From Patescibacteria group bacterium (GTDB lineage Bacteria > Patescibacteriota > Minisyncoccia > Moranbacterales > DUUL01), in NCBI GenBank assembly GCA_015493225.1, contig WGDO01000032.1, positions 1-58,234 of the forward strand: a DNA stretch of 58,234 nt. The letters are read 5' to 3'. Of this stretch, positions 11,007 to 47,160 are shown in pieces. The notes under the pieces were generated by a model. It was not told where the DNA came from. It was given only the letters and a program-made list of their open reading frames with translations, and ran no database searches. A program made the position numbers and the translations under genes. Each line of letters opens with the position of its first letter. The stretch's first letter is position 1.

Positions 11007-11966
11007 ATGAATAGGCTAAATAAAATTTTTATATTTGTTATAGGGGCAGGTATAGTTATCAGCGGTTATTATTGGTGGCAAAGTGGATTGAAAAATAAAA
11101 CCATAAATAAAGACGGACAAAATAACACTGTTAAAAAAGAAAACATCATCAAAACTTCTTCTCATAATTCAGAAGGCAAATCTCTGCATAGTTTCTTTAA
11201 TCAAAAAGAAGATTATTTAGAAGCATTTGCATCCTGTGATAAAATGCAACGGATAAATTTTACTAGTTCTCCCAGAGTTGGCATTGTTTCCCATCATTTT
11301 TTAGCCAAGAATAGCATTGCTTGTTTTTTTGATAATTTTCCAAATAAAAACAAAATTACAACTATTATTTTAATTGGCCCAGATCATTTTCATTCTTTTG
11401 GGGAAAAACAATCTTTGTTTTTTACAACTAAAACAAAATGGTCTACTCCTTTTGGAAATTTATTACCAGAGGATAAAATTATTAATAATTTATTGAAAAA
11501 TAAATTAGTTATGGAGAATAATCCGGTTTTTCAAACCGAGCATTCTATTTACACAGAAATACCTTTTATCAAAAAAGCATTTCCCCAGGCTAAGGTTGTC
11601 CCGCTGATTGTTAAAAATAATTTTGATTATACTACTTTTCAAGATTTTGGGAGAAAGATATTGGCGCCGTTAATTAAAAAGAACTCTTTGATTATAGTTA
11701 GTAGTGATTTTACGCATCACAGTACAAACAAAGAAGCTCGCCAAATAGACAGAAAAAGTTTGGAGGCTTTAGAAAATCTATCAATTAAAACTTTGCCAAA
11801 AATAACTTCCGATTGCCGGGCTTGTCTGGCGTTGATGTCAGGTTGTTTACTAAAAGAAAATGGCAAGGATAACAATAAGCATTTTAAGTTATTTGCTAAT
11901 CAAAATTCCACCGACTTCGGCGGGGAAGATAAAAATGTTACCAGTTACATATTTGGATATTATTAA
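11007..11966 (+). CDS. amrB: AmmeMemoRadiSam system protein B (MEMO family), anchored
   Basis: A 319-residue protein with an N-terminal transmembrane or signal segment (IFIFVIGAGIVISGYYWW) and a MEMO domain from about residue 90. Conserved blocks include GIVSHHFLAK, ILIGPDHFHSFG, TEHSIYTEIPF and SSDFTHH, which hold the metal-binding His residues. MEMO proteins resemble class III extradiol dioxygenases and partner with AMMECR1 and a radical SAM enzyme; those partners are not in this window. The membrane anchor and the tight link to the DUF3160 gene suggest an extracytoplasmic version. Confidence 0.83.
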   Translation: MNRLNKIFIFVIGAGIVISGYYWWQSGLKNKTINKDGQNNTVKKENIIKTSSHNSEGKSLHSFFNQKEDYLEAFASCDKMQRINFTSSPRVGIVSHHFLAKNSIACFFDNFPNKNKITTIILIGPDHFHSFGEKQSLFFTTKTKWSTPFGNLLPEDKIINNLLKNKLVMENNPVFQTEHSIYTEIPFIKKAFPQAKVVPLIVKNNFDYTTFQDFGRKILAPLIKKNSLIIVSSDFTHHSTNKEARQIDRKSLEALENLSIKTLPKITSDCRACLALMSGCLLKENGKDNNKHFKLFANQNSTDFGGEDKNVTSYIFGYY

Positions 11967-12008
11967 TGAAATAAACTTAAGAATAATTAATAATTAAAAT
12001 AACTAGCT

Positions 12009-14390
12009 ATGAAATCAGAAGAGATAAAAAGATTGGGAATTAGTAGTTCGCAAAAGTATTATAATTATCTCTCTGAAAATGGTCAGGGTGTTGTAATAAT
12101 TAATATTATTGATAAATCTAGAAGAGGAGAAATTTTTAAATTTAGTCTAAATAGAAAAATACACAATATTGAAATGATTGAGTTTGAAATATCTGGAGAG
12201 CAAATTGATTCAGATAGAATTAAGATTATTGAGTACGATAGGGATAATAACACACTCACAGTAAAGCCCATTAAGAATTTACAAGAACAGTTTAGGAAAT
12301 TACACAATGATGAGATAAGGATTATTTCAGATTTAAAATTTCTTATTAAGCGAGTAGAAGATTGGTATGAAAAGCATGGAGATGAAATCAAAATTCCCTC
12401 TCCAGGTGTTTCACTACATATTAATACCCCAACAAATGAAGATTTTTTCCCTGAGATGATGCCATCACCTGATCAAAGATTGGGTATAGAGGCAATTTTT
12501 AATAGTCCATTGAACTATGTTTGGGGAGCACCAGGCACAGGGAAAACGCAGTTAGTACTTGCATATTCTCTCATTCAATATATACGTTCAGGAAAGAAAG
12601 TAGCTATTTTTGCTGCCACAAATAATGCCTTAGAGCAGATTTTATACGGCGTACTAAAGATGACTAAAGAAGCAGGGATTGAAGATAGTAAAATTCTCCG
12701 ATTAGGAACTCCTTCGAGTAAATTCGCTCAAGAACATCCTAATTCTTGTGAATCAATAGGAGTCCAACGAAGGATAAGTGAACTTAATAATCAAATTGAA
12801 ATTATCAAGAAAGGTATAGAACACAAGGAGCTATTTGAAGCCTTAAAGATAATTAAAGACAAAAGTCAAGAAATATTTTCTCAATTTGAAGAGGTATATA
12901 TACAAAAAGAGAAAATTCGACTAGGTATGAAATCAATAAAGGAGAATATTCTACATTCACAATATGTATTGGATAAGTTGCAACTGCAAGTATTAGAATT
13001 AGAGGAAAATATTAAACAAAAAGAAAAAATTAAGGCAGCTTTCTCATATAGGCTCAAGAAATTATTTACTAAAAATATAAATCTAGAGATAGAACTCAGA
13101 GAAGAAAGAATTAGATTATACGAAATCAAAAATGAGAGCAATATAAAAGAAGATGAAGTTAGTATCCTTAGGCGACAGTACAAGGAATTGGAAATAGAGC
13201 ATAATGATTCATCGGAGAGTGTAAAACTAATTGAAGATATTCAAAGTCTTTGTGCCAACAATGAGCAGATAGAAGAAATCGTTTCCAGTATAACATTGCA
13301 GAATTATCAAAGTATTCAAAATAATTTGAACGCGTATGTACAGGAGTATAATGAGATGTTGATTACAGAAAAGTACATTAGATTAACAGAGCAAGAACTG
13401 TTAAAAAAATTAAAAAATCTGGAGTCTAAAAAAAATAATCTTGAATCAGATAGTACAGAAAGTGTAGAGAAAGCCAATGTTATTGCACTTACTTTAGATT
13501 GTTATATTGGTAGATACCAGGACAAAGAACTACCTGCCGAGCATTATTTTCTTGATGAGGCTGGGTACGCTAGTCTGATCAAAGCACTTACACTTTTCAG
13601 AAGAAATATCCCTATTACGTTATTGGGTGATCATATGCAATTACCACCTGTTTGTGAAATGAATGATAGTAACATAGAAGAGGATAATCAAGATATTTTT
13701 ATGTGGGCACAATCATCTTTGTATGCTGAATGGATTTTTACAAAGGAGAGTCAAGAAACATTTCTAGATTATTCTAAAAGGAACCCTTACGTTTTTAATA
13801 GAACAAAAAAAATAGATTTATTGCATACATATCGATTTGGAGCAGCATTGGCGCACAAATTGGACGAGTTTGTTTATCAGAATGGATTTGTTGCACATGA
13901 CCAAATTGGAGAGACGGGGGTTTATTATGTAGATGCACCGCACACTAGTCCACAATCACCAGCAATTGTTAATGGTCACGAAACTCATTCACCTTCAAGG
14001 GAAAATCAAGCTGAGGCTTCTAAGATTCGTGAATTAGTTGGTGACCTTGATGAAAACAGTTTTGCTATTCTAACACCCTATAGAAAACAGGCAACACTCA
14101 TTGAAAATGAATTGCCAGGGGCAAGGCGTAACCAAAGAATCATGACAATACACGGATCTCAAGGGAAAGAATGGGATGACGTAGTTTTAAGTGTTGTCGA
14201 TACAGACAGAATGTATTTTGTTAATACTCTTAATAGGCAGATTAGAGGTCTTAATATTTTAAATACAGCGGTAAGTAGGGCAAGGAAAAGATTATTTATT
14301 GTTTGTAACTACAATTTTTGGATTAGGCAAGATAATCAACTAATTAAAGGACTTTTAGAGACGGCAACACCAGCGGAAAATATTGAATAA
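12009..14390 (+). CDS. Superfamily 1 helicase (UPF1/DNA2-like)
   Basis: A 793-residue P-loop ATPase. Walker A is WGAPGTGKTQLV (about residue 175), motif II is FLDEAG (about 516), motif III is LLGDHMQLPPV, motif V is HGSQGKEWDDVVLS and motif VI is NTAVSRARKRL. A coiled-coil insertion of about 220 residues (about 260-480) separates motifs I and II. The N-terminal 130 residues have no recognised nuclease. Such helicases act in nucleic-acid repair, RNA turnover or phage defence. It stands alone, with no visible partner gene. Codon choice looks somewhat different from its neighbours, so acquisition by transfer is possible. Confidence 0.85.
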   Translation: MKSEEIKRLGISSSQKYYNYLSENGQGVVIINIIDKSRRGEIFKFSLNRKIHNIEMIEFEISGEQIDSDRIKIIEYDRDNNTLTVKPIKNLQEQFRKLHNDEIRIISDLKFLIKRVEDWYEKHGDEIKIPSPGVSLHINTPTNEDFFPEMMPSPDQRLGIEAIFNSPLNYVWGAPGTGKTQLVLAYSLIQYIRSGKKVAIFAATNNALEQILYGVLKMTKEAGIEDSKILRLGTPSSKFAQEHPNSCESIGVQRRISELNNQIEIIKKGIEHKELFEALKIIKDKSQEIFSQFEEVYIQKEKIRLGMKSIKENILHSQYVLDKLQLQVLELEENIKQKEKIKAAFSYRLKKLFTKNINLEIELREERIRLYEIKNESNIKEDEVSILRRQYKELEIEHNDSSESVKLIEDIQSLCANNEQIEEIVSSITLQNYQSIQNNLNAYVQEYNEMLITEKYIRLTEQELLKKLKNLESKKNNLESDSTESVEKANVIALTLDCYIGRYQDKELPAEHYFLDEAGYASLIKALTLFRRNIPITLLGDHMQLPPVCEMNDSNIEEDNQDIFMWAQSSLYAEWIFTKESQETFLDYSKRNPYVFNRTKKIDLLHTYRFGAALAHKLDEFVYQNGFVAHDQIGETGVYYVDAPHTSPQSPAIVNGHETHSPSRENQAEASKIRELVGDLDENSFAILTPYRKQATLIENELPGARRNQRIMTIHGSQGKEWDDVVLSVVDTDRMYFVNTLNRQIRGLNILNTAVSRARKRLFIVCNYNFWIRQDNQLIKGLLETATPAENIE

Positions 14391-39571: not shown

Positions 39572-40204
39572 ATGACAAAAAAACTATCTGAAAAAGAAAT
39601 AACCTTGCAAACCTATAATAAATCAGCCAAAGAATTGGCTGAATATTTTAATAGTATTGGCTCTCGTAAAAGTGATATTAATAGGGCTTTCTCTTATATA
39701 AATAAAAAAGAGCCAAAGGTATTAGAAATTGGTTGTGGGGATGGTCGTGATGCGGAATATATTATAAATAAAACGAAAAATTATGAGGGATTTGATTTAT
39801 CTGAGGAGATGATAAATACAGTTAAGACAAAAGTATCTAAAGGAAATTTTCATGTGGCTGACTTAGAAGAATATTTTTTCAAAAACAAACCAAATAAAAA
39901 GTATGACATTATTTTTGCCTTTGCATCACTACTACACAGTAATAAACAGACATTAAAAAAAGTAATTTTAAGAGTTAGTGACTTTATAACGAAAGGAGGA
40001 ATATTTTATATCTCATTAAAAATAAAAAAAGTTTATACAAGAGAAACAAAAAAAGATAGATTTGGTACACGGGTATTTTATTATTATACCCCAGAATTAA
40101 TTCAAAATTTTGCGCAAAATAGATATAAAACTCTTTTTATGGAAACTCAAATAATTGGTAAAACAGAATGGTTGACCATCATTTTACAAAAAACTAAAAA
40201 TTAG
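39572..40204 (+). CDS. Class I SAM-dependent methyltransferase
   Basis: A 210-residue Rossmann methyltransferase. Motif I is VLEIGCGDGRDAEYI, followed by EGFDLSEEMI and the acidic FHVADLEEYF; IIFAFASLLHSNK fits motif IV. The substrate is unknown. It is 12 bases upstream of ruvC, suggesting an operon. Confidence 0.88.
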   Translation: MTKKLSEKEITLQTYNKSAKELAEYFNSIGSRKSDINRAFSYINKKEPKVLEIGCGDGRDAEYIINKTKNYEGFDLSEEMINTVKTKVSKGNFHVADLEEYFFKNKPNKKYDIIFAFASLLHSNKQTLKKVILRVSDFITKGGIFYISLKIKKVYTRETKKDRFGTRVFYYYTPELIQNFAQNRYKTLFMETQIIGKTEWLTIILQKTKN

Positions 40205-40216
40205 GGATTAAAAACA

Positions 40217-40729
40217 ATGAAAGATAAAAACAAAGAAATAATTATTCTCGGTATTGACCCGGGGACGGCGATTACTGGTTGGGGAATTATTAAGGATGGG
40301 AAGAAGGAGATGGAGGTAGTGGCTTATGGCTGTATTGAGACGAGTAAAAACAAAACCGATGTGGAAAGATTAAAAGAAACAGCTAAAGATTTACAGGCAA
40401 TTATCAAAGAATACAAACCAGATGAAATGGCCATTGAGGAATTATTCTTTTTTAAGAATCTAAAGACAGCTATAAAAGTAGCTCAATCCCGAGGAGTACT
40501 AATGTTTGTTACTGCCAAGCAGAAAATTTCGGTGGCGGAATATACTCCCTTGCAAATTAAGCAAGCCTTAACTGGTTACGGGAGAGCAGATAAAAAACAG
40601 ATGCAAATAATGGTGCAAAGCATTCTTAAACTTAAAACTATTCCTAAACCAGATGATGCTGCTGATGCTCTGGCCGTCGCCATCTGTCATCAACAATCTC
40701 GCAAACTAGAACAACTGATGAAAAAGTGA
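40217..40729 (+). CDS. ruvC: Holliday junction endonuclease RuvC
   Basis: A 170-residue resolvase that cleaves four-way junctions in recombination. The four acidic residues are visible in ILGIDPGTAITGWGI, AIEELFF and KPDDAADALAVAICH, and the length is typical. RuvA and RuvB are not in this window. Confidence 0.95.
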   Translation: MKDKNKEIIILGIDPGTAITGWGIIKDGKKEMEVVAYGCIETSKNKTDVERLKETAKDLQAIIKEYKPDEMAIEELFFFKNLKTAIKVAQSRGVLMFVTAKQKISVAEYTPLQIKQALTGYGRADKKQMQIMVQSILKLKTIPKPDDAADALAVAICHQQSRKLEQLMKK

Positions 40730-40884
40730 TTGATTTTAAGTTGCCCCCTTTTTAAAGGGGGCAGAAGGCTGGACAAATTTTTTTAGTTTGCGTAGTTGTG
40801 AATTTATCCCGCGAAGCCAAAGGCGAAGTAGGAGAGTGGAATAAAAAGAATTTGTTCAGGCTTCGGGGGTTTTTAAGTAGCTAA

Positions 40885-40985
40885 CCGAAAAACCCCCCAA
40901 ATTCTCTTATTACTTTTATTTATCAACTTCGTTGATAAATAAAAGTAATAAGAGAATTTGACCCCCTTTACACAGGAGGCAGACC
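40885..40985. repeat. Perfect 30-bp hairpin repeat with C-run ends
   Basis: Between CCCCCC and GACCCCCTTTACACAGGAGG lies an inverted repeat with 30-base perfect arms (starting CAAATTCTCTTATTAC) around the loop TTC. The same design is at 55660-55765. C-run fragments also occupy 40738-40765. Confidence 0.85.
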
Positions 40986-41014
40986 AAGACAATTTTAAAT
41001 TTTAACAAAAAATC

Positions 41015-42319
41015 ATGCAAGAAAATAATCAAAAACGAATAATTAACTTTGAAAAATATGAGTTAGCCAACGGGGTGAGGGTGGTTTTGGCTCCAGATGA
41101 ACGAGCAGTAGCAACCATTGCTCAAGTTTTGGTTGGCACTGGTTCAAAATATGAAAATAAAAAAAATAACGGTATTTCCCATTTTTTAGAACATATGGTT
41201 TTTAAGGGAACGAAAACTAGACCGTCCACCAAAGCCATAGCCGAAGAGGTAGATAGTGTTGGCGGACAAATGAATGCTTTTACCGGACAAGAAGAAACTG
41301 GTTATTGGATTAAAATGCCAACGGAACATAGTGGATTGGCTTTGGATTTGGTGGCGGACATTTATCTTAATTCCTTACTGGAGCAAAAAGAACTAGAGAA
41401 AGAAAGAGGCGTAATTTTACAGGAGATGGCTATGTATGAAGATATGCCAATGCGTAAAGTGGAAGAAGTTTTTGAGGAGTTATTATATGGCGATCAACCA
41501 GCTGGATGGCCAATAATCGGTCAGGAAAAAAATATTCAAAAACTGACTGCCCAAGATTTAAAAAAATACATACAAAAACAATACCTGCCGGCCGAAACAG
41601 TCGTAACGGTAGCTGGTAATTTTTCCGTTCCGAAGATTAAAAAACAAATACAGGAATTATTTGGTAAGAAAAGAAAGACAGATAAAAGAAATAAGCGACC
41701 AGAAGTTAAAGAAAAACAACGACAGCCTCGTTTGCAAATAGAAGAAAAAGACACTGACCAGACTCATTTGGTACTGGGCTTTCGTTCCTATAATATGTTT
41801 GACCGACGAAAATATGCCCTAAGTTTATTGTCTAGTATTCTCGGCGGGGGAATGAGTTCTCGGATGTTTCTGCGAATTAGAGAACGAGAAGGACTGGCTT
41901 ACTACATTCACACCGCCAGTGAAACAAATTTAGATACGGGGGTTTTTGCTATTCAAGCTGGTGTCAGTCACGATAATTCAGAAAAGACCGTTAAATTAAT
42001 TTTGCAGGAGGTTCTAAAAGTCGCTAAAAAGAAAGTAACAGAAAAAGAGTTGAAAAAATCCAAGGATAAAATCAAAGGTTCTTTTACAATGGGATTAGAG
42101 ACCATTCAATCCCGGGCTGGATTTTTAGCCAACCAAGAACTTTTCCGAAGAGATATTAAAACGGTTAAATATATTTTAAAACAGTATGATAGAGTAACCG
42201 CAGAAGACATTCAAAAAGTCGCCCAACAAATTTTCAAAAATTCCAAACTCAACCTAGCCATCATCGGCCCGCATAAGAATAATGAAGAAAGGTTGAAAGA
42301 AATTTTGAAGGTTTCTTAA
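41015..42319 (+). CDS. M16 family zinc peptidase (processing-protease type)
   Basis: A 434-residue single-chain M16B-like peptidase. The inverted zinc motif HFLEH is near residue 51 with the distant Glu in LEKERGVILQEM. SSILGGGMSSRMFLRIRE and REGLAYYIHTASET fit the C-terminal half. Homologues degrade small peptides. No signal peptide is seen, so it is cytoplasmic. Confidence 0.92.
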   Translation: MQENNQKRIINFEKYELANGVRVVLAPDERAVATIAQVLVGTGSKYENKKNNGISHFLEHMVFKGTKTRPSTKAIAEEVDSVGGQMNAFTGQEETGYWIKMPTEHSGLALDLVADIYLNSLLEQKELEKERGVILQEMAMYEDMPMRKVEEVFEELLYGDQPAGWPIIGQEKNIQKLTAQDLKKYIQKQYLPAETVVTVAGNFSVPKIKKQIQELFGKKRKTDKRNKRPEVKEKQRQPRLQIEEKDTDQTHLVLGFRSYNMFDRRKYALSLLSSILGGGMSSRMFLRIREREGLAYYIHTASETNLDTGVFAIQAGVSHDNSEKTVKLILQEVLKVAKKKVTEKELKKSKDKIKGSFTMGLETIQSRAGFLANQELFRRDIKTVKYILKQYDRVTAEDIQKVAQQIFKNSKLNLAIIGPHKNNEERLKEILKVS

Positions 42320-42402
42320 AAATTTTAAATTTTAAATTTTAAGTTTTCCAGCCTTACTGAAGTATTGACTGAGCTGTTAATGTTGTGCTAACCTTAATTT
42401 GT

Positions 42403-42455
42403 AGGTATAGGGTGTACATTAAAGATGGTGCTAAAATTAAATTAGCATAATCAAC
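42403..42455 (+). pseudogene. Duplicated tail of the 42726 gene
   Basis: The frame reads CRYRVYIKDGAKIKLA and stops, resembling CRWAVKKIEKDGAKIEL at the end of the small gene 440 bases downstream; the DNA KDGAKI segments match closely. It has no proper start and looks like the remnant of a duplicated gene. Confidence 0.5.
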
Positions 42456-42482
42456 AAAATAATTTACAGAGGAGGAATTGGC

Positions 42483-42668
42483 ATGACCAATATCATAACA
42501 TTTTTTTTGGGGTCAAGTAATAATATAAATCCTTTATTTACTACACTAGGTGTTGGGTGGCTATGTGTTTTTATTTACCTGCTGTGGCAAAAGGGTCGTC
42601 TAGAAAAATATATGAACAAAATAACCAATGTTGAATTTTGTTATACTGTCAGTTCTGGTGATAACTGA
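42483..42668 (+). CDS. Small single-pass membrane protein
   Basis: A 61-residue protein with one helix (FTTLGVGWLCVFIYLLW, about 19-36) and a short hydrophilic tail. GAGGAGG stands seven bases before the ATG. The stop is UGA, and the same frame stays open for another 76 codons, ending as the next gene. It is the first of a series of tiny genes with strong ribosome-binding sites. No family is recognised. Confidence 0.6.
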   Translation: MTNIITFFLGSSNNINPLFTTLGVGWLCVFIYLLWQKGRLEKYMNKITNVEFCYTVSSGDN

Positions 42669-42690
42669 GCGGTCACTATACATACGTTCA

Positions 42691-42717
42691 TATGTGTCGG
42701 GAACACATACTGGGAGG
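42691..42717 (+). promoter_or_regulatory. Hairpin next to Shine-Dalgarno sequence
   Basis: TATGTGT-CGGGA-ACACATA forms a 7-bp hairpin ending two bases before GGGAGG, which serves a TTG start at 42726. This spacing could couple translation to the upstream gene. Confidence 0.5.
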
Positions 42718-42725
42718 CAGTACCT

Positions 42726-42899
42726 TTGTTTTTGTTCTTTGTTGTGGTAAGAAAATGTATTTACGATGAAGATATTGTAAGAAAAATGACAAAAGAAAGT
42801 TATCGAGACTCAGAATTAATCATCTGGCAATGTCGCTGGGCAGTTAAGAAAATCGAAAAAGATGGTGCTAAAATTGAATTGGTGCAATCAGCAGATTAG
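42726..42899 (+). CDS. Small basic protein (TTG start)
   Basis: A 57-residue protein beginning with a hydrophobic patch (LFFVVV) and continuing in a charged helix (DGAKIEL near the end). The start is TTG, eight bases after GGGAGG. It is in the same frame as the preceding gene across its UGA stop, so a read-through product is formally possible. A decayed copy of its 3' end lies at 42403. Confidence 0.5.
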   Translation: MFLFFVVVRKCIYDEDIVRKMTKESYRDSELIIWQCRWAVKKIEKDGAKIELVQSAD

Positions 42900-42914
42900 C
42901 CTTTGGAGGGTGTC

Positions 42915-43052
42915 ATGAACAAAAAGGGAAAAGCGGCAAAAAGAAAACAAGCAAAAAAAACGGAAAAATACTGCAATAAAAAGAAAAGCCGAGGTGCTTA
43001 TAACGTCGAAATCAAGATGGGTTGGCTGGATGAGGGAGAGAAGATACTCTGA
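42915..43052 (+). CDS. Tiny Lys-rich protein, possibly frameshifted
   Basis: GGAGGG precedes ATG by four bases. The zero frame gives 45 residues, very Lys-rich at the start. An A8 run at 42953-42960 sits early in it; skipping one base there opens a frame that continues to 43161 with RYSDLKKQLSKKSLEIVRAR. The longer reading looks more protein-like, so this is either a frameshifted or phase-variable gene. Confidence 0.4.
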   Translation: MNKKGKAAKRKQAKKTEKYCNKKKSRGAYNVEIKMGWLDEGEKIL

Positions 43053-43108
43053 CTTGAAAAAGCAGCTAAGTAAAAAGTCCCTAGAAATTGTTCGGGCGAG
43101 AACATTAA

Positions 43109-43510
43109 TTGAGGACATTGTTTTTTTTAAATGCTGGTACAGAGCCATTCGTGCGTATTGAATTATCTACGCCCAATTCTCATGTTAAAGCCCTGGATAA
43201 ACTTGTCCGGAAAAAAACATTCAAGGGGGACAATTTTGTAAATTTAGCAACCAGACAGCGTTATTCGACAAATTGTGCCTTTTCTAGAGAAAATTTATTT
43301 TTAGTTGGTTATTTATCAGAAGATGAGTATGCCGAATTTGAACGAATTTCCACAGGAGGCTCTTCATTGTCATGGACAGCAGAAGTTATTGTTTACAATT
43401 TTCCTCGTGAAAAGACTAAGATTGTCGAAGTTTATGCAGATGTTAATTGGTCTATGGACAGGGAATTGATTTCTAGGGATCTTGAAGTATATAATTTTCA
43501 GGGGTTGTAA
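43109..43510 (+). CDS. Protein of unknown function, uncertain start
   Basis: The open frame encodes up to 133 residues with a regular mixed composition (FVNLATRQRYSTNCAFSREN, SLSWTAEVIVYNFPREKTK). No ATG start exists near its beginning; TTG at 43109 or GTG at 43151 would be needed, neither with a ribosome-binding site. A T8 run at 43121-43128 joins it to the preceding frame if one base is skipped, so it may be the body of a single gene started at 42915. Confidence 0.5.
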   Translation: MRTLFFLNAGTEPFVRIELSTPNSHVKALDKLVRKKTFKGDNFVNLATRQRYSTNCAFSRENLFLVGYLSEDEYAEFERISTGGSSLSWTAEVIVYNFPREKTKIVEVYADVNWSMDRELISRDLEVYNFQGL

Positions 43511-43583
43511 AATATCTTATGGCAGTTTTATGGCGATGTTTATTCGAGTATTTCCTATTGGGTGAATATCGTCTTTTTTATCC

Positions 43584-43612
43584 TTGATATTTCTTTCAAA
43601 GTAGGCTATTAT
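43584..43612 (+). promoter_or_regulatory. Promoter of the structured RNA gene
   Basis: TTGATA and TATTAT with the optimal 17-base spacing, predicting a start near 43619. Confidence 0.65.
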
Positions 43613-43618
43613 AAAACC

Positions 43619-43813
43619 AATCTCGGGTGGAATGGCACAGAACCACCCAATTAAGAGATAAAGTGCCATTGACTCATCGGTTTTGTACGAATCCTTAAGT
43701 AGCGGCGAGCGAACGGGGTATAAATCTCTAAGTAGCGGCGAGCGAATGGAGATAGATATGTACAAACACAACTAACAAGTTGTGGGACAAACGTTCACCG
43801 ATGAGTTTTTTTG
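43619..43813 (+). ncRNA. Structured RNA with two 23S rRNA hairpin mimics
   Basis: A roughly 195-nt RNA. It begins with hairpin GGGTGG/CCACCC (43625-43648). An outer stem ACTCATCGGT (43672) with ACCGATGAGT (43797) is followed by seven Ts, so it doubles as terminator. TTTGTAC/GTACAAA continues inward. Enclosed are two hairpins with the identical loop core AGTAGCGGCGAGCGAA (43698-43713 and 43731-43746), closed by CCTT/GGGG and by ATCTCT/GGAGAT. A further hairpin is CACAACT/AGTTGTG. The loop core and its 18-nt loop size equal the conserved domain I hairpin of bacterial 23S rRNA. The two stems differ but both pair. No convincing reading frame lies on this strand. Confidence 0.7.
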
Positions 43814-43897
43814 TTTTTAAAATCAAGATATTATAAATGGGATTATGCGACAAAAAATCTTTATGGGTCGCCATCTATAATTGCTGGCATAAATAGC

Positions 43898-43925
43898 ATA
43901 CAACTATTCAATTGAATAGTTGTAT
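43898..43925. promoter_or_regulatory. Operator of the ArsR-like regulator, copy 1
   Basis: A perfect palindrome with half-site ACAACTATTCAA. Its right end overlaps the -35 box of the regulator's own promoter, as expected for autorepression. Confidence 0.8.
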
Positions 43926-43948
43926 AACTTAATAAACTGTGTTATGAT
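43920..43948 (+). promoter_or_regulatory. Promoter of the ArsR-like regulator
   Basis: TTGTAT and TATGAT with a 17-base spacer. The -35 lies within the palindromic operator. Confidence 0.65.
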
Positions 43949-43998
43949 AATAAACCAATTTACTATTGGTAAGTTTATTATTAAGATAAAATATTGTC

Positions 43999-44277
43999 AT
44001 GAAGAACAAAATCAAAAAAAGCAATCAATTGGATTATATTGTAAAAGGTTTTGCAAATAAAAGAAGAATTGATATTATTTTTCTCTTAGAAAAATATCCG
44101 GAATTATCAGTATCGGATATTGCTAAGCATTTTAACATTAGTTATACGGCAGTATCTAATCATTTGTTAAAGATGATGAGCAGAGGAATAGTAATGAAAC
44201 GAAATGATAAATCGGAGGTTAGGCATGCTTTAACCAATAAAGGAAAAGCAATTGCTAACTTTCTATCAAAAATATGA
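43999..44277 (+). CDS. ArsR-like winged-helix regulator
   Basis: A 92-residue winged-helix protein. The recognition helix region reads SVSDIAKHFNISYTAVSNHLLKMMSRG, and the wing includes KSEVRHALTNKGK. It has no cysteines, and the metal-binding ELCVC segment of ArsR/SmtB is ELSVS here, so it is probably not a metal sensor of that type. Three perfect copies of one 24-bp palindrome surround it, one over its promoter. No Shine-Dalgarno sequence. Confidence 0.85.
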   Translation: MKNKIKKSNQLDYIVKGFANKRRIDIIFLLEKYPELSVSDIAKHFNISYTAVSNHLLKMMSRGIVMKRNDKSEVRHALTNKGKAIANFLSKI

Positions 44278-44345
44278 AATAATTTTTTTATCACAATTGT
44301 TAGATTAACATCCGGTGATTTATGCTCAATTATTTGGAATTGTGT

Positions 44346-44381
44346 CGGACTATACAACTATTCAATTGAATAGTTGTATAG
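44346..44381. promoter_or_regulatory. Operator copy 2 (36-bp palindrome)
   Basis: The ACAACTATTCAA palindrome is extended by GACTAT and ATAGTC into an 18+18 perfect inverted repeat. It lies 70 bases after the regulator gene. Confidence 0.75.
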
Positions 44382-44450
44382 TCGTATTTATATTTAAGCT
44401 TAGGATGGGATAAAAAGTGGGAGATACAAATTATCTCCTGTAGCACTGAT

Positions 44451-44513
44451 CAACTATTCAATGTATACAATCATTCATTTAATATATACAACTATTCAAT
44501 TGAATAGTTGTAT
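44451..44513. promoter_or_regulatory. Operator copy 3 plus a degenerate half-site
   Basis: A perfect ACAACTATTCAA palindrome at 44488-44511 is preceded by the half-site CAACTATTCAATG at 44451. It lies 50 bases upstream of the promoter of the AI-2E family gene. Confidence 0.7.
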
Positions 44514-44561
44514 GGTTGTTAAAAGAGTATAAAGATTATATTGATTAATGATTTGGTTTAC

Positions 44562-44590
44562 TTGATAAATTAACAAATTACAGGTATTAT
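44562..44590 (+). promoter_or_regulatory. Promoter of the AI-2E family transporter
   Basis: TTGATA and TATTAT with a 17-base spacer, 50 bases before the start codon. Confidence 0.6.
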
Positions 44591-44640
44591 AAGAGTAGAG
44601 AAATGAAGGAAGTGGACAGAATAATCATTAAAATATAATC

Positions 44641-45675
44641 ATGCATCAACAGACAAAAACCATCGAAATTTCTTTGAAAACGATTTGGTATACAGTCTTC
44701 ATTGTGGCCGGAGCTTGGTTTTTGTTTGCCATTAGAGACATTTTATTACTTTTGTTTTTAGCCATTATTCTTTCCAGTGCCATTCAGCCAATCGTTGATA
44801 AGCTAGAAAAGAAAAAAATACCTCGCACCCTAACCACATTAAGTATTTACATTTTAGCTCTGGTTGTTTTTTTCTGGTTCTTTAATATTATTATTCCTAT
44901 CCTGGGCAGTGAATTAAAAGAATTAGGTTTAGTGCTGGGAACTTATTTTGGCAACTTTAACAATATTTTCAGTGGGTACATAAATATGATTAGTAACTGG
45001 AATATTTTAGATCAACTAGCAACCATCAAAGAAAGTACTTCCGGGGGAGTAGCCCAACTAGGTGCAAATATTTTTTCCAATACAGTAGGTGTCTTTACTG
45101 GACTCTTTAAAACCATGATTGTTCTTTCCCTATCTTTCTATATGATTGTTAAAAAAGATGGAGCCTGGGGATTTGTGAATAATGTTGTACCAAAAAAATA
45201 TGAAAAATACACCATTAATTTAATTAAGAGAATACAACATCAGGTAGGTCGCTGGATGATTAGTCAATTTATTCTAGCTGGCATTATTTTTGTTTTAGAA
45301 TATTTGGTTTTAATGTTGTTGAACGTACCCTTAGCTTTAACCCTAGCTCTACTGGGAGGCCTCTTGGAAATAATTCCTTACATTGGACCAACGATTAGTG
45401 TTATTCCCGCTGTTCTAATAGGGCTAACTATTTCTCCCTGGGTAGCGGTTGTTATTTTTCTATTATATATTTTAATTCAACAACTGGAAAATCATATTAT
45501 TGTACCCTTGCTTATGAAAAAAGCAGTTGGATTAAATCCAGTGGTGGTAATTTTAGTTTTACTGATCGGAGGAAAATTGGCAGGAGTAGCCGGATTAATT
45601 TTAGCCGTACCCCTTACCGCCGCCGCCAGTGTTGTTTGGGATGATTTGGTGAATAGGGAAGTCGCTAAAAGATAG
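44641..45675 (+). CDS. AI-2E family transporter
   Basis: A 344-residue polytopic membrane protein of the PerM/TqsA family with about seven to eight helices. The conserved block GGLLEIIPYIGPTISVIPAVLIG and ENHIIVPLLMKKAVGLNPVVV identify it. Members export small molecules or ions, including AI-2 or Na+/H+. The operators upstream suggest possible control by the ArsR-like regulator. No Shine-Dalgarno sequence. Confidence 0.92.
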   Translation: MHQQTKTIEISLKTIWYTVFIVAGAWFLFAIRDILLLLFLAIILSSAIQPIVDKLEKKKIPRTLTTLSIYILALVVFFWFFNIIIPILGSELKELGLVLGTYFGNFNNIFSGYINMISNWNILDQLATIKESTSGGVAQLGANIFSNTVGVFTGLFKTMIVLSLSFYMIVKKDGAWGFVNNVVPKKYEKYTINLIKRIQHQVGRWMISQFILAGIIFVLEYLVLMLLNVPLALTLALLGGLLEIIPYIGPTISVIPAVLIGLTISPWVAVVIFLLYILIQQLENHIIVPLLMKKAVGLNPVVVILVLLIGGKLAGVAGLILAVPLTAAASVVWDDLVNREVAKR

Positions 45676-45693
45676 AAATATTTAAGAATAAAT

Positions 45694-45728
45694 AAAAATG
45701 GGCGTGCCATATAAATTTATGACAGCCC
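45694..45728 (-). terminator. Intrinsic terminator (minus strand)
   Basis: On the minus strand GGGCTGTCAT pairs with ATGGCACGCCC (one bulged C), followed by ATTTTTATTT. It ends the small secreted-protein transcript. Confidence 0.75.
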
Positions 45729-45752
45729 AAATTACTCTGTTGAGATTCTCCC

Positions 45753-46064
45753 TTAATCTTCTTTGAAAGTAGTGTTACAAGAAGCCGGGGTGATAGATTC
45801 TGATATTGAGACCTTATTACCCAGTGAATTGTTAGAAATGAAAACCATTTCATGTTGAAGAAAGCACTCAGTGGTATTCATTTGAAATAAAATCCAGGTA
45901 GAAATGTTTTGTTTCCTTATAATCTGGCTATCACGTTGAAGCATTTTAGCCCCAGGTGGGAGAGCTGGTATAGTGTTTTTTCCGCAATCACTCGCCGAAG
46001 CAAGCGATGTAAGAAAAATAACAATACCAATACAAATTAGGGAAAGAACTAACGATTTTCTCAT
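45753..46064 (-). CDS. Small secreted protein of unknown function
   Basis: A 103-residue protein with a signal peptide (LVLSLICIGIVIFLTSLASA, cleavage near residue 24). The mature part has three Cys (DCGKN, ECFLQ, SCNTT). No family is recognised. AAGGAG lies nine bases before the ATG; the promoter is canonical and a terminator follows. It stands alone between two housekeeping genes, like the secreted orphans at 30-31 kb. Confidence 0.7.
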   Translation of the reverse strand: MRKSLVLSLICIGIVIFLTSLASASDCGKNTIPALPPGAKMLQRDSQIIRKQNISTWILFQMNTTECFLQHEMVFISNNSLGNKVSISESITPASCNTTFKED

Positions 46065-46126
46065 AATAAATCTCCTTGTTATGAGGGTTGAGTAAAAATT
46101 TATTGAAATTATTAAGCCAACATTCT

Positions 46127-46154
46127 ATTATACACCATTATGTTATTATGTCAA
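46127..46154 (-). promoter_or_regulatory. Promoter of the small secreted-protein gene
   Basis: Minus-strand TTGACA and TATAAT, both perfect, with a 16-base spacer. Confidence 0.8.
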
Positions 46155-46203
46155 GAAAATAAATGTTTTAAATCACAAACTCTAATTTCTAATTAAAGCA
46201 CCT

Positions 46204-47160
46204 ATGTTAATCGATGATGTCACAATTAAAGTAAAAGCAGGGCGAGGAGGAGATGGTTTATCTACCTTTTCCAAGGTTGTTCTTGAAAATGGGCCAACTG
46301 GTGGTGATGGTGGACGAGGAGGAAATGTTGTCATAAAAGGAGTAACTGATTTGGGAGCTCTTAGACAATTTCAACATAAAAAAGTCATCAAAGCTGCGCC
46401 CGGAGGACGAGGCGGTCAAAATACTCGAGAAGGAGCTGGTGGTAAAGATGCCGTTATTTTAGTCCCCATGGGAACAGTCATTCATAATCTAGATAATGAC
46501 ACCAGCCAAGAAATTACAAAAAAAGATGCGGAAATAATCATTGCCCGTGGAGGCAATGGTGGTTTTGGAAATCATCATTATCGTTCTAGTAGAAATACCT
46601 CGCCCACTAGAGCCAACGAGGGTGCCCCAGGAGAAGAATTTACTATTCGCTTAGAACTAAAATTAATTGCCGACATAGGATTAATTGGTTATCCCAATGT
46701 AGGAAAATCTACTTTTTTAAATACCTTTACCAGTGCTAAGAGTAAAGTAGCTAATTATCAATTTACTACTCTAGAACCTCATTTAGGGGTTTACTATGGT
46801 TTAATTTTGGCGGACATTCCCGGCTTAATAGAAGGCGCAGCCCAGGGAAAAGGCCTGGGGCATAAATTTTTGCAACACATTGAACGAACTAAAATGTTAT
46901 TTCATTTCATCGCTTCAGACAGTATTGACCCAATTAATGATTATTTAATCATTCGAAAAGAGTTGGAAAAATTTAACCCAAAAATGTTAAAGAAAAAAGA
47001 GTGGATAATTTTAAGTCGGATTGATGAGACAGACCAAAAAGAATTAAAGCAAATAGAAAAGAAATTACAAAAATATAATAAAAATGTTATCGCATTAAGT
47101 GTAGTCGATGATGATAGTATAAAAGAAATGAAGGAGTTTTTGAATAAAATTAAAGACTAG
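46204..47160 (+). CDS. obg: GTPase Obg
   Basis: A 318-residue ribosome-associated GTPase. The glycine-rich Obg fold (KAGRGGDGLSTF, GGDGGRGGNV) occupies about residues 1-158. The G domain follows with G1 GYPNVGKST and G3 ADIPGLIEGA; the G4 position reads LSRIDE instead of NKxD, which may weaken guanine specificity. The variable C-terminal extension of many Obg proteins is absent. Confidence 0.95.
   Translation: MLIDDVTIKVKAGRGGDGLSTFSKVVLENGPTGGDGGRGGNVVIKGVTDLGALRQFQHKKVIKAAPGGRGGQNTREGAGGKDAVILVPMGTVIHNLDNDTSQEITKKDAEIIIARGGNGGFGNHHYRSSRNTSPTRANEGAPGEEFTIRLELKLIADIGLIGYPNVGKSTFLNTFTSAKSKVANYQFTTLEPHLGVYYGLILADIPGLIEGAAQGKGLGHKFLQHIERTKMLFHFIASDSIDPINDYLIIRKELEKFNPKMLKKKEWIILSRIDETDQKELKQIEKKLQKYNKNVIALSVVDDDSIKEMKEFLNKIKD

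Follow-up and report, generated by a model that had tools for sequence, protein, structure and literature searches.

A hairpin that reproduces the loop of helix 13 (H13) of 23S ribosomal RNA (rRNA) was found on different stems in an RNA of a Patescibacteria group bacterium, in relatives from the same order and in large phages, and this suggests that such mimics of ribosomal RNA form a class not yet described. In the window (the whole stretch of DNA analysed here, 58,234 nucleotides), positions 43584–43813 are predicted to encode a stand-alone RNA of approximately 195 nt, in which a pseudoknot domain at the 5′ end is followed on the 3′ side by a junction that the terminator stem closes. Our preferred explanation, to which we attach about even confidence, is that this RNA is transcribed, acts in trans as a mimic of H13 and serves as a decoy in conflict among mobile elements, phages and cells.

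The preliminary description of this DNA had proposed a self-contained promoter–RNA–terminator unit at 43584–43813, and the promoter, both hairpin stems, the outer stem and the T run were all located in the sequence. The 5′ pseudoknot had been overlooked and is added here. The features of the unit are as follows:

43584–43612, forward strand: putative sigma-70-like promoter TTGATA-N17-TATTAT, matching the consensus (TTGATA at 43584–43589, TATTAT at 43607–43612)
43620–43670, forward strand: 5′ domain, composed of P1, P2 and a pseudoknot
43620–43624/43655–43659, forward strand: P1, ATCTC/GAGAT, present in the MFE fold
43625–43630/43643–43648, forward strand: P2, GGGTGG/CCACCC, present in the MFE fold
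43631–43638/43663–43670, forward strand: pseudoknot AATGGCAC/GTGCCATT, drawn from complementarity alone, AATGGCAC being the loop of P2
43672–43681/43797–43806, forward strand: P3, the terminator stem ACTCATCGGT/ACCGATGAGT closing a multibranch junction, seen in folds and followed by the T run
43682–43766, forward strand: P4, TTTGTAC/GTACAAA, the arm bearing both H13 hairpins, seen in folds
43693–43718, forward strand: H13 mimic hairpin 1, stem CCTT/GGGG, core at 43698–43713
43724–43753, forward strand: H13 mimic hairpin 2, stem ATCTCTA/TGGAGAT, core at 43731–43746
43767–43784, forward strand: hairpin P7, CACAACT/AGTTGTG, seen in folds
43785–43796, forward strand: weak 4-bp hairpin P8, GGAC/GTTC, in the MFE fold
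43806–43812, forward strand: T run of the intrinsic terminator, read from the sequence

The window RNA folds better than its shuffled versions (z = −3.3). Its unconstrained MFE structure does not contain both H13 hairpins together, and imposing both costs just 0.1 kcal/mol. Among Rfam ncRNA families no match to the window RNA was obtained at the gathering threshold, all matches in the window scoring below it. Two known types of RNA were considered and rejected: a type III toxin–antitoxin RNA (pseudoknot repeats in tandem, followed by a ToxN-like gene), as the neighbouring proteins have no such domain, and a ribosomal-protein leader, as the gene 3′ of the RNA encodes an ArsR/MarR-type HTH protein and starts past the terminator, and the RNAs at other loci adjoin unrelated genes. 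The palindrome ACAACTATTCAATTGAATAGTTGT is present in three exact copies (43900–43923, 44354–44377 and 44488–44511) surrounding this HTH gene (43999–44277), and the copies are likely its operators. Elsewhere in the window, a long near-perfect hairpin lies between two genes at 40902–40956, where microRNA models match below threshold.

The core AGTAGCGGCGAGCGAA occurs twice, 33 bases apart, at 43698–43713 and 43731–43746, on differing paired stems as had been described, and the 1.3-Mb genome contains no further exact copy. The stems CCTT/GGGG and ATCTCT/GGAGAT pair as claimed. Of the 18-nt loops that had been drawn on them, the stems and the location hold and the open loop does not, as G5-C13 and C6-G12 can pair around GGCGA; in hairpin 2, an optional A-U pair at −1/+1 would also shrink the loop to 16 nt. 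Both in the RNA and in the 23S rRNA of the same genome the loop can be drawn as AGUA-GC-GGCGA-GC-GAA, that is, an internal loop with a pentaloop cap, and its AGUA/GAA part matches what we take to be the bulged-G (sarcin–ricin type) motif. A helix-13-like arrangement was found: core AGUAGCGGCGAGCGAA, GC/GC pairs, a −1/+1 mismatch and then a stem.

In 23S rRNA, AGTAGCGGCGAGCGAA forms the loop of helix 13, a universally conserved hairpin of domain I, and the earlier claim of a conserved 23S hairpin agreed with the 23S gene of the same genome (L034, contig C6), in which the matching hairpin has the loop AGTAGTGGCGAGCGAA and the stem GATTCCCTA..CGGGGA. This loop is one base off AGTAGCGGCGAGCGAA (U6-G12 in place of C6-G12), and the RNA was therefore not copied from the local rRNA. 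No 23S fragment was detected with the Rfam LSU covariance model in window positions 40000–47000 at E values up to 5. Like 23S helix 13 (RF02541), the window RNA combines the identical 16-nt core with one −1/+1 mismatch and then a short stem, and the mimics vary at core positions 5, 6 and 13 (phage forms AGTAA.. and AGTAGT..), as do 23S loops; in eukaryotes the loop has the form AGTAACGGCGAGTGAA. Unlike helix 13, the window RNA lies outside LSU RNA, has other stems and two copies of the hairpin, and is served by its own promoter and terminator; the U6 form is the one in the genome's own 23S rRNA. The 23S gene itself (L034, 2928–6854) is approximately 3.9 kb long against a 2.9-kb model, which implies insertions of approximately 1 kb. 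Such an insertion-rich 23S gene and the size of the genome are both in keeping with the earlier reading of the source as CPR.

Searches of 131 genomes of the order by BLAST, a single-sequence covariance model and exact-pattern scans detected the core outside 23S genes in ten further genomes, nine with the C form (G006, G013, G054, G075, G080, G081, G087, G107 and G130) and one with the T form (G070); this set was gathered by exact or near-exact loop match and is no measure of loop invariance. Together with the source genome, carriers make up 11 of the 131 genomes and are distributed patchily. Approximately 0.03 exact chance matches were expected in the order, the reversed-pattern control gave none in the 131 genomes, and a sarcin–ricin-loop control was never present more than once per genome, with no extra copies. 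All ten RNAs are intergenic, and an intrinsic terminator closes or comes after each; none matched an Rfam family. They have one hairpin each, the two-copy form being peculiar to the source genome. Exact scans for the double-core pattern found no match in genome or viral contigs, records of the source genome or near it having possibly been left out, and relaxed double-core forms likewise gave none in these contigs. Unconstrained MFE folds of the G006, G081, G087 and G070 RNAs contain the H13 hairpin, and the P3-closed junction plan recurs in folds of the G070 RNA and others.

Beyond the order, 384 genomes from the class and 380 from the phylum were scanned with a 5′ filter that skips hairpins with G at position −9; among the matches listed, G239 was the one other clear case. 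There the core lies 3′ of a 16S gene, in a structured unit that has a promoter and a terminator to itself. At locus L197 (340–1250) three consecutive units, with similar promoter and terminator sequences repeated, follow a 16S gene; the first contains the H13 loop and also a short frame encoding what resembles a signal peptide.

The preliminary description had asked for homologues with compensatory stem changes around the same loop, and these were found within the order. Pairing holds across the 12 CPR-type rows, at 90% of cells overall and 85% of those in the stem. Covariation in these rows, which were picked by the core alone from genomes with the core outside 23S and not for pairing, was 0.697 versus 0.206 ± 0.057 in shuffled rows and at most 0.258 with partners slid. 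It rose to 0.817 with the phage rows included; these were partly selected for pairing, and the CPR rows alone are unbiased. In nearly all hairpins one mismatch beside the core is followed by pairing, which is the geometry of H13. A relative of the G070 RNA in genome G028 is 90% identical over the region and keeps the stem by a compensated change. Its loop, AGGAGCGGCGAGCGAA, has one substitution relative to the C form, and the loop is therefore not absolutely fixed.

Apart from the core and a 5′ element shared by three RNAs, no k-mer is common to the RNAs above chance. The exception is a 5′ pseudoknot element, TTCGGCGA..TCGTGCACCC, in G013, G075 and G054 (L235, L236 and L242), which belong to three different families; the model of this element (R2) was confined to these three genomes within the order, weak matches elsewhere being left out, and matches to its pattern in viral contigs were mostly without model support. 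Scaffolds are unrelated even inside one genus (G080/G081 and G130/G054). A search across the loci for a shared neighbour gene found none, the neighbours being ordinary and unrelated (secA, a class II tRNA synthetase, an msrAB-like gene and exonuclease VII among them). Since they differ at each locus, the earlier suggestion of an element required by the adjacent island of mini-genes found no support. Nor was a consistent defence-gene neighbour found, PADLOC matches near the loci being mostly helicase-type or scattered; the G028 relative precedes what reads by eye as a RhuM remnant and a type I HsdR. The G070 RNA lies inside an insertion of approximately 1.17 kb that is missing from the sister genomes G067, G033 and G069, with flanks read by eye as rpsT and holA. 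Small orphan frames occur in this insertion and likewise upstream of the window RNA, and siting within insertions bearing small orphan genes may recur. Short frames just upstream of the window RNA (42483–43510) were without Pfam or convincing PHROGs matches.

In viral contigs, 49 loop-variant matches were compared with 67 matches of the reversed pattern. Strong flanking stems accompanied nine of the former (seven of them non-rRNA) and none of the latter, and for non-rRNA matches the difference (7/44 versus 0/67) corresponds to a Fisher p of approximately 0.001. Several of the carrier contigs exceed 140 kb. The phage hairpin is located on tRNA-like RNAs (L040, L045/L047 and L088) or beside a tRNA (L041). 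In L045 (at about 175), L047 (about 145) and L040 (about 971) the H13 loop apparently replaces the anticodon loop, and a long variable region is present; in L088 (8087–8102), on a 172-kb phage contig, the hairpin seems to lie within the D-loop of a tRNA-like RNA. In L182 (831–846) the order is T-arm and acceptor 3′ strand, H13 loop, acceptor 5′ strand and D-arm, an arrangement resembling a permuted tRNA that the H13 loop closes. Near this loop, L182 has a ROOL RNA together with a weak YrlA-like match; the mimics share this type of setting, tRNA-rich stretches in large phages, with ROOL, GOLLD and similar large phage ncRNAs, from which the window RNA differs in being much shorter and in having no Rfam match.

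A second part of 23S rRNA, the GTPase-associated region (GAR), also has a likeness in some of these phages. In L086 (10055–10193) it is situated a little more than 100 nt upstream of the H13 mimic (z = 7.7 versus shuffles), and in L093/L094 a 21-nt exact piece of GAR lies in the same long noncoding region as the mimic; L093, where the region is at 11549–12372, also has a tmRNA and a twister-P5 ribozyme. Most other viral matches to the GAR core (L190–L196) were without surrounding GAR sequence and were set aside. Also excluded were L110 (G502), which reads as a divergent 23S, and L112 and L113 (G226), as 23S copies. BLAST of the whole RNA against phages gave no match, and matches of the short hairpin in phages and plasmids were mostly at sites annotated or readable as 23S.

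As the hairpin alone is common to most of the RNAs, intermolecular recognition by something that recognises H13 is the simplest explanation. The hairpins would bind a factor that normally recognises H13 in 23S rRNA; the RNA, acting in trans, would titrate or recruit this factor and, as a decoy, could pull an rRNA-directed factor off ribosomes. A conflict, and with it a decoy, is favoured because the scaffolds are patchy and fast-changing, one locus is an insertion and phages carry copies. Phage-borne RNAs that imitate a host RNA to occupy a protein are known, RNA anti-CRISPRs among them, and offer a working model by analogy; the H13 mimics differ from these in copying rRNA instead of CRISPR repeats and in being chromosomal in CPR-type genomes as well. 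A wider proposal, in which RNA decoys copying H13, and in some phages GAR too, form a diffuse class encoded by large phages and CPR-type bacteria and neutralise an undiscovered factor that attacks or reads 23S rRNA (for example, a toxin or a defence enzyme), we put forward tentatively and with some doubt.

The main rivals of the decoy are a housekeeping regulator and a generic structural module. In the former case, ribosome synthesis would be tuned in trans through binding of the hairpins to a ribosomal protein or a 50S assembly factor, with no conflict involved. The mRNA leaders of ribosomal proteins, in which a protein-binding site of rRNA is copied into another RNA, are established biology, H13 itself is conserved within domain I and the G070 RNA comes after what reads as rpsT. 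Unlike these leaders, the window RNA is a stand-alone RNA with a terminator. The scaffolds, unrelated even between congeneric genomes, the patchy presence, the phage copies and the insertion locus all weigh against regulation of this kind, which we consider unlikely. The bulged-G hairpin with its GGCGA loop could instead be a stable or docking element unlinked to recognition of 23S rRNA, given that this motif type recurs among structured RNAs and that phages place the hairpin in tRNA-like scaffolds. That would leave the recurrence of the entire 16-nt sequence, pentaloop included, and its near-restriction to one order among the sampled CPR genomes to be explained; the RNAs have no receptor in common, and the GAR mimicry in L086 and L093 speaks for mimicry of 23S rRNA over a generic module, a reading we also find rather improbable.

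Two further explanations fare worse. The core might be a target site at the DNA or RNA level, for instance of an element homing to or integrating in 23S genes, and one locus is indeed an insertion; compensatory stem changes are not needed by a DNA target, though, and the insertion boundary lies away from the core, which makes this very improbable. That the unit is what is left of a broken or duplicated 23S gene, or matches by chance, is refuted for practical purposes: hairpin 1 is 90–93% identical to 23S over 30 nt, but no LSU match was found, the two copies have different stems, the genome's own 23S gene, whose loop is different, lies intact on a separate contig, and more than ten loci are independent. 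The earlier reading as mimicry rather than an rRNA fragment is thus supported, by the compensatory stems in relatives, the loop unlike that of the genome's own 23S rRNA and the lack of an LSU match.

The literature search returned no paper treating this sequence as an RNA element and no list of H13 contacts for ribosomal proteins, and a recognition event at helix 13, if shown, would be one not described in the literature searched. The hairpin could be used as bait to find its partner. Should the partner be an rRNA-directed toxin or defence enzyme, the mimics would mark a new front in the conflict between phages and their hosts; should it be a ribosomal or assembly protein, they would represent a new form of trans regulation of ribosomes.
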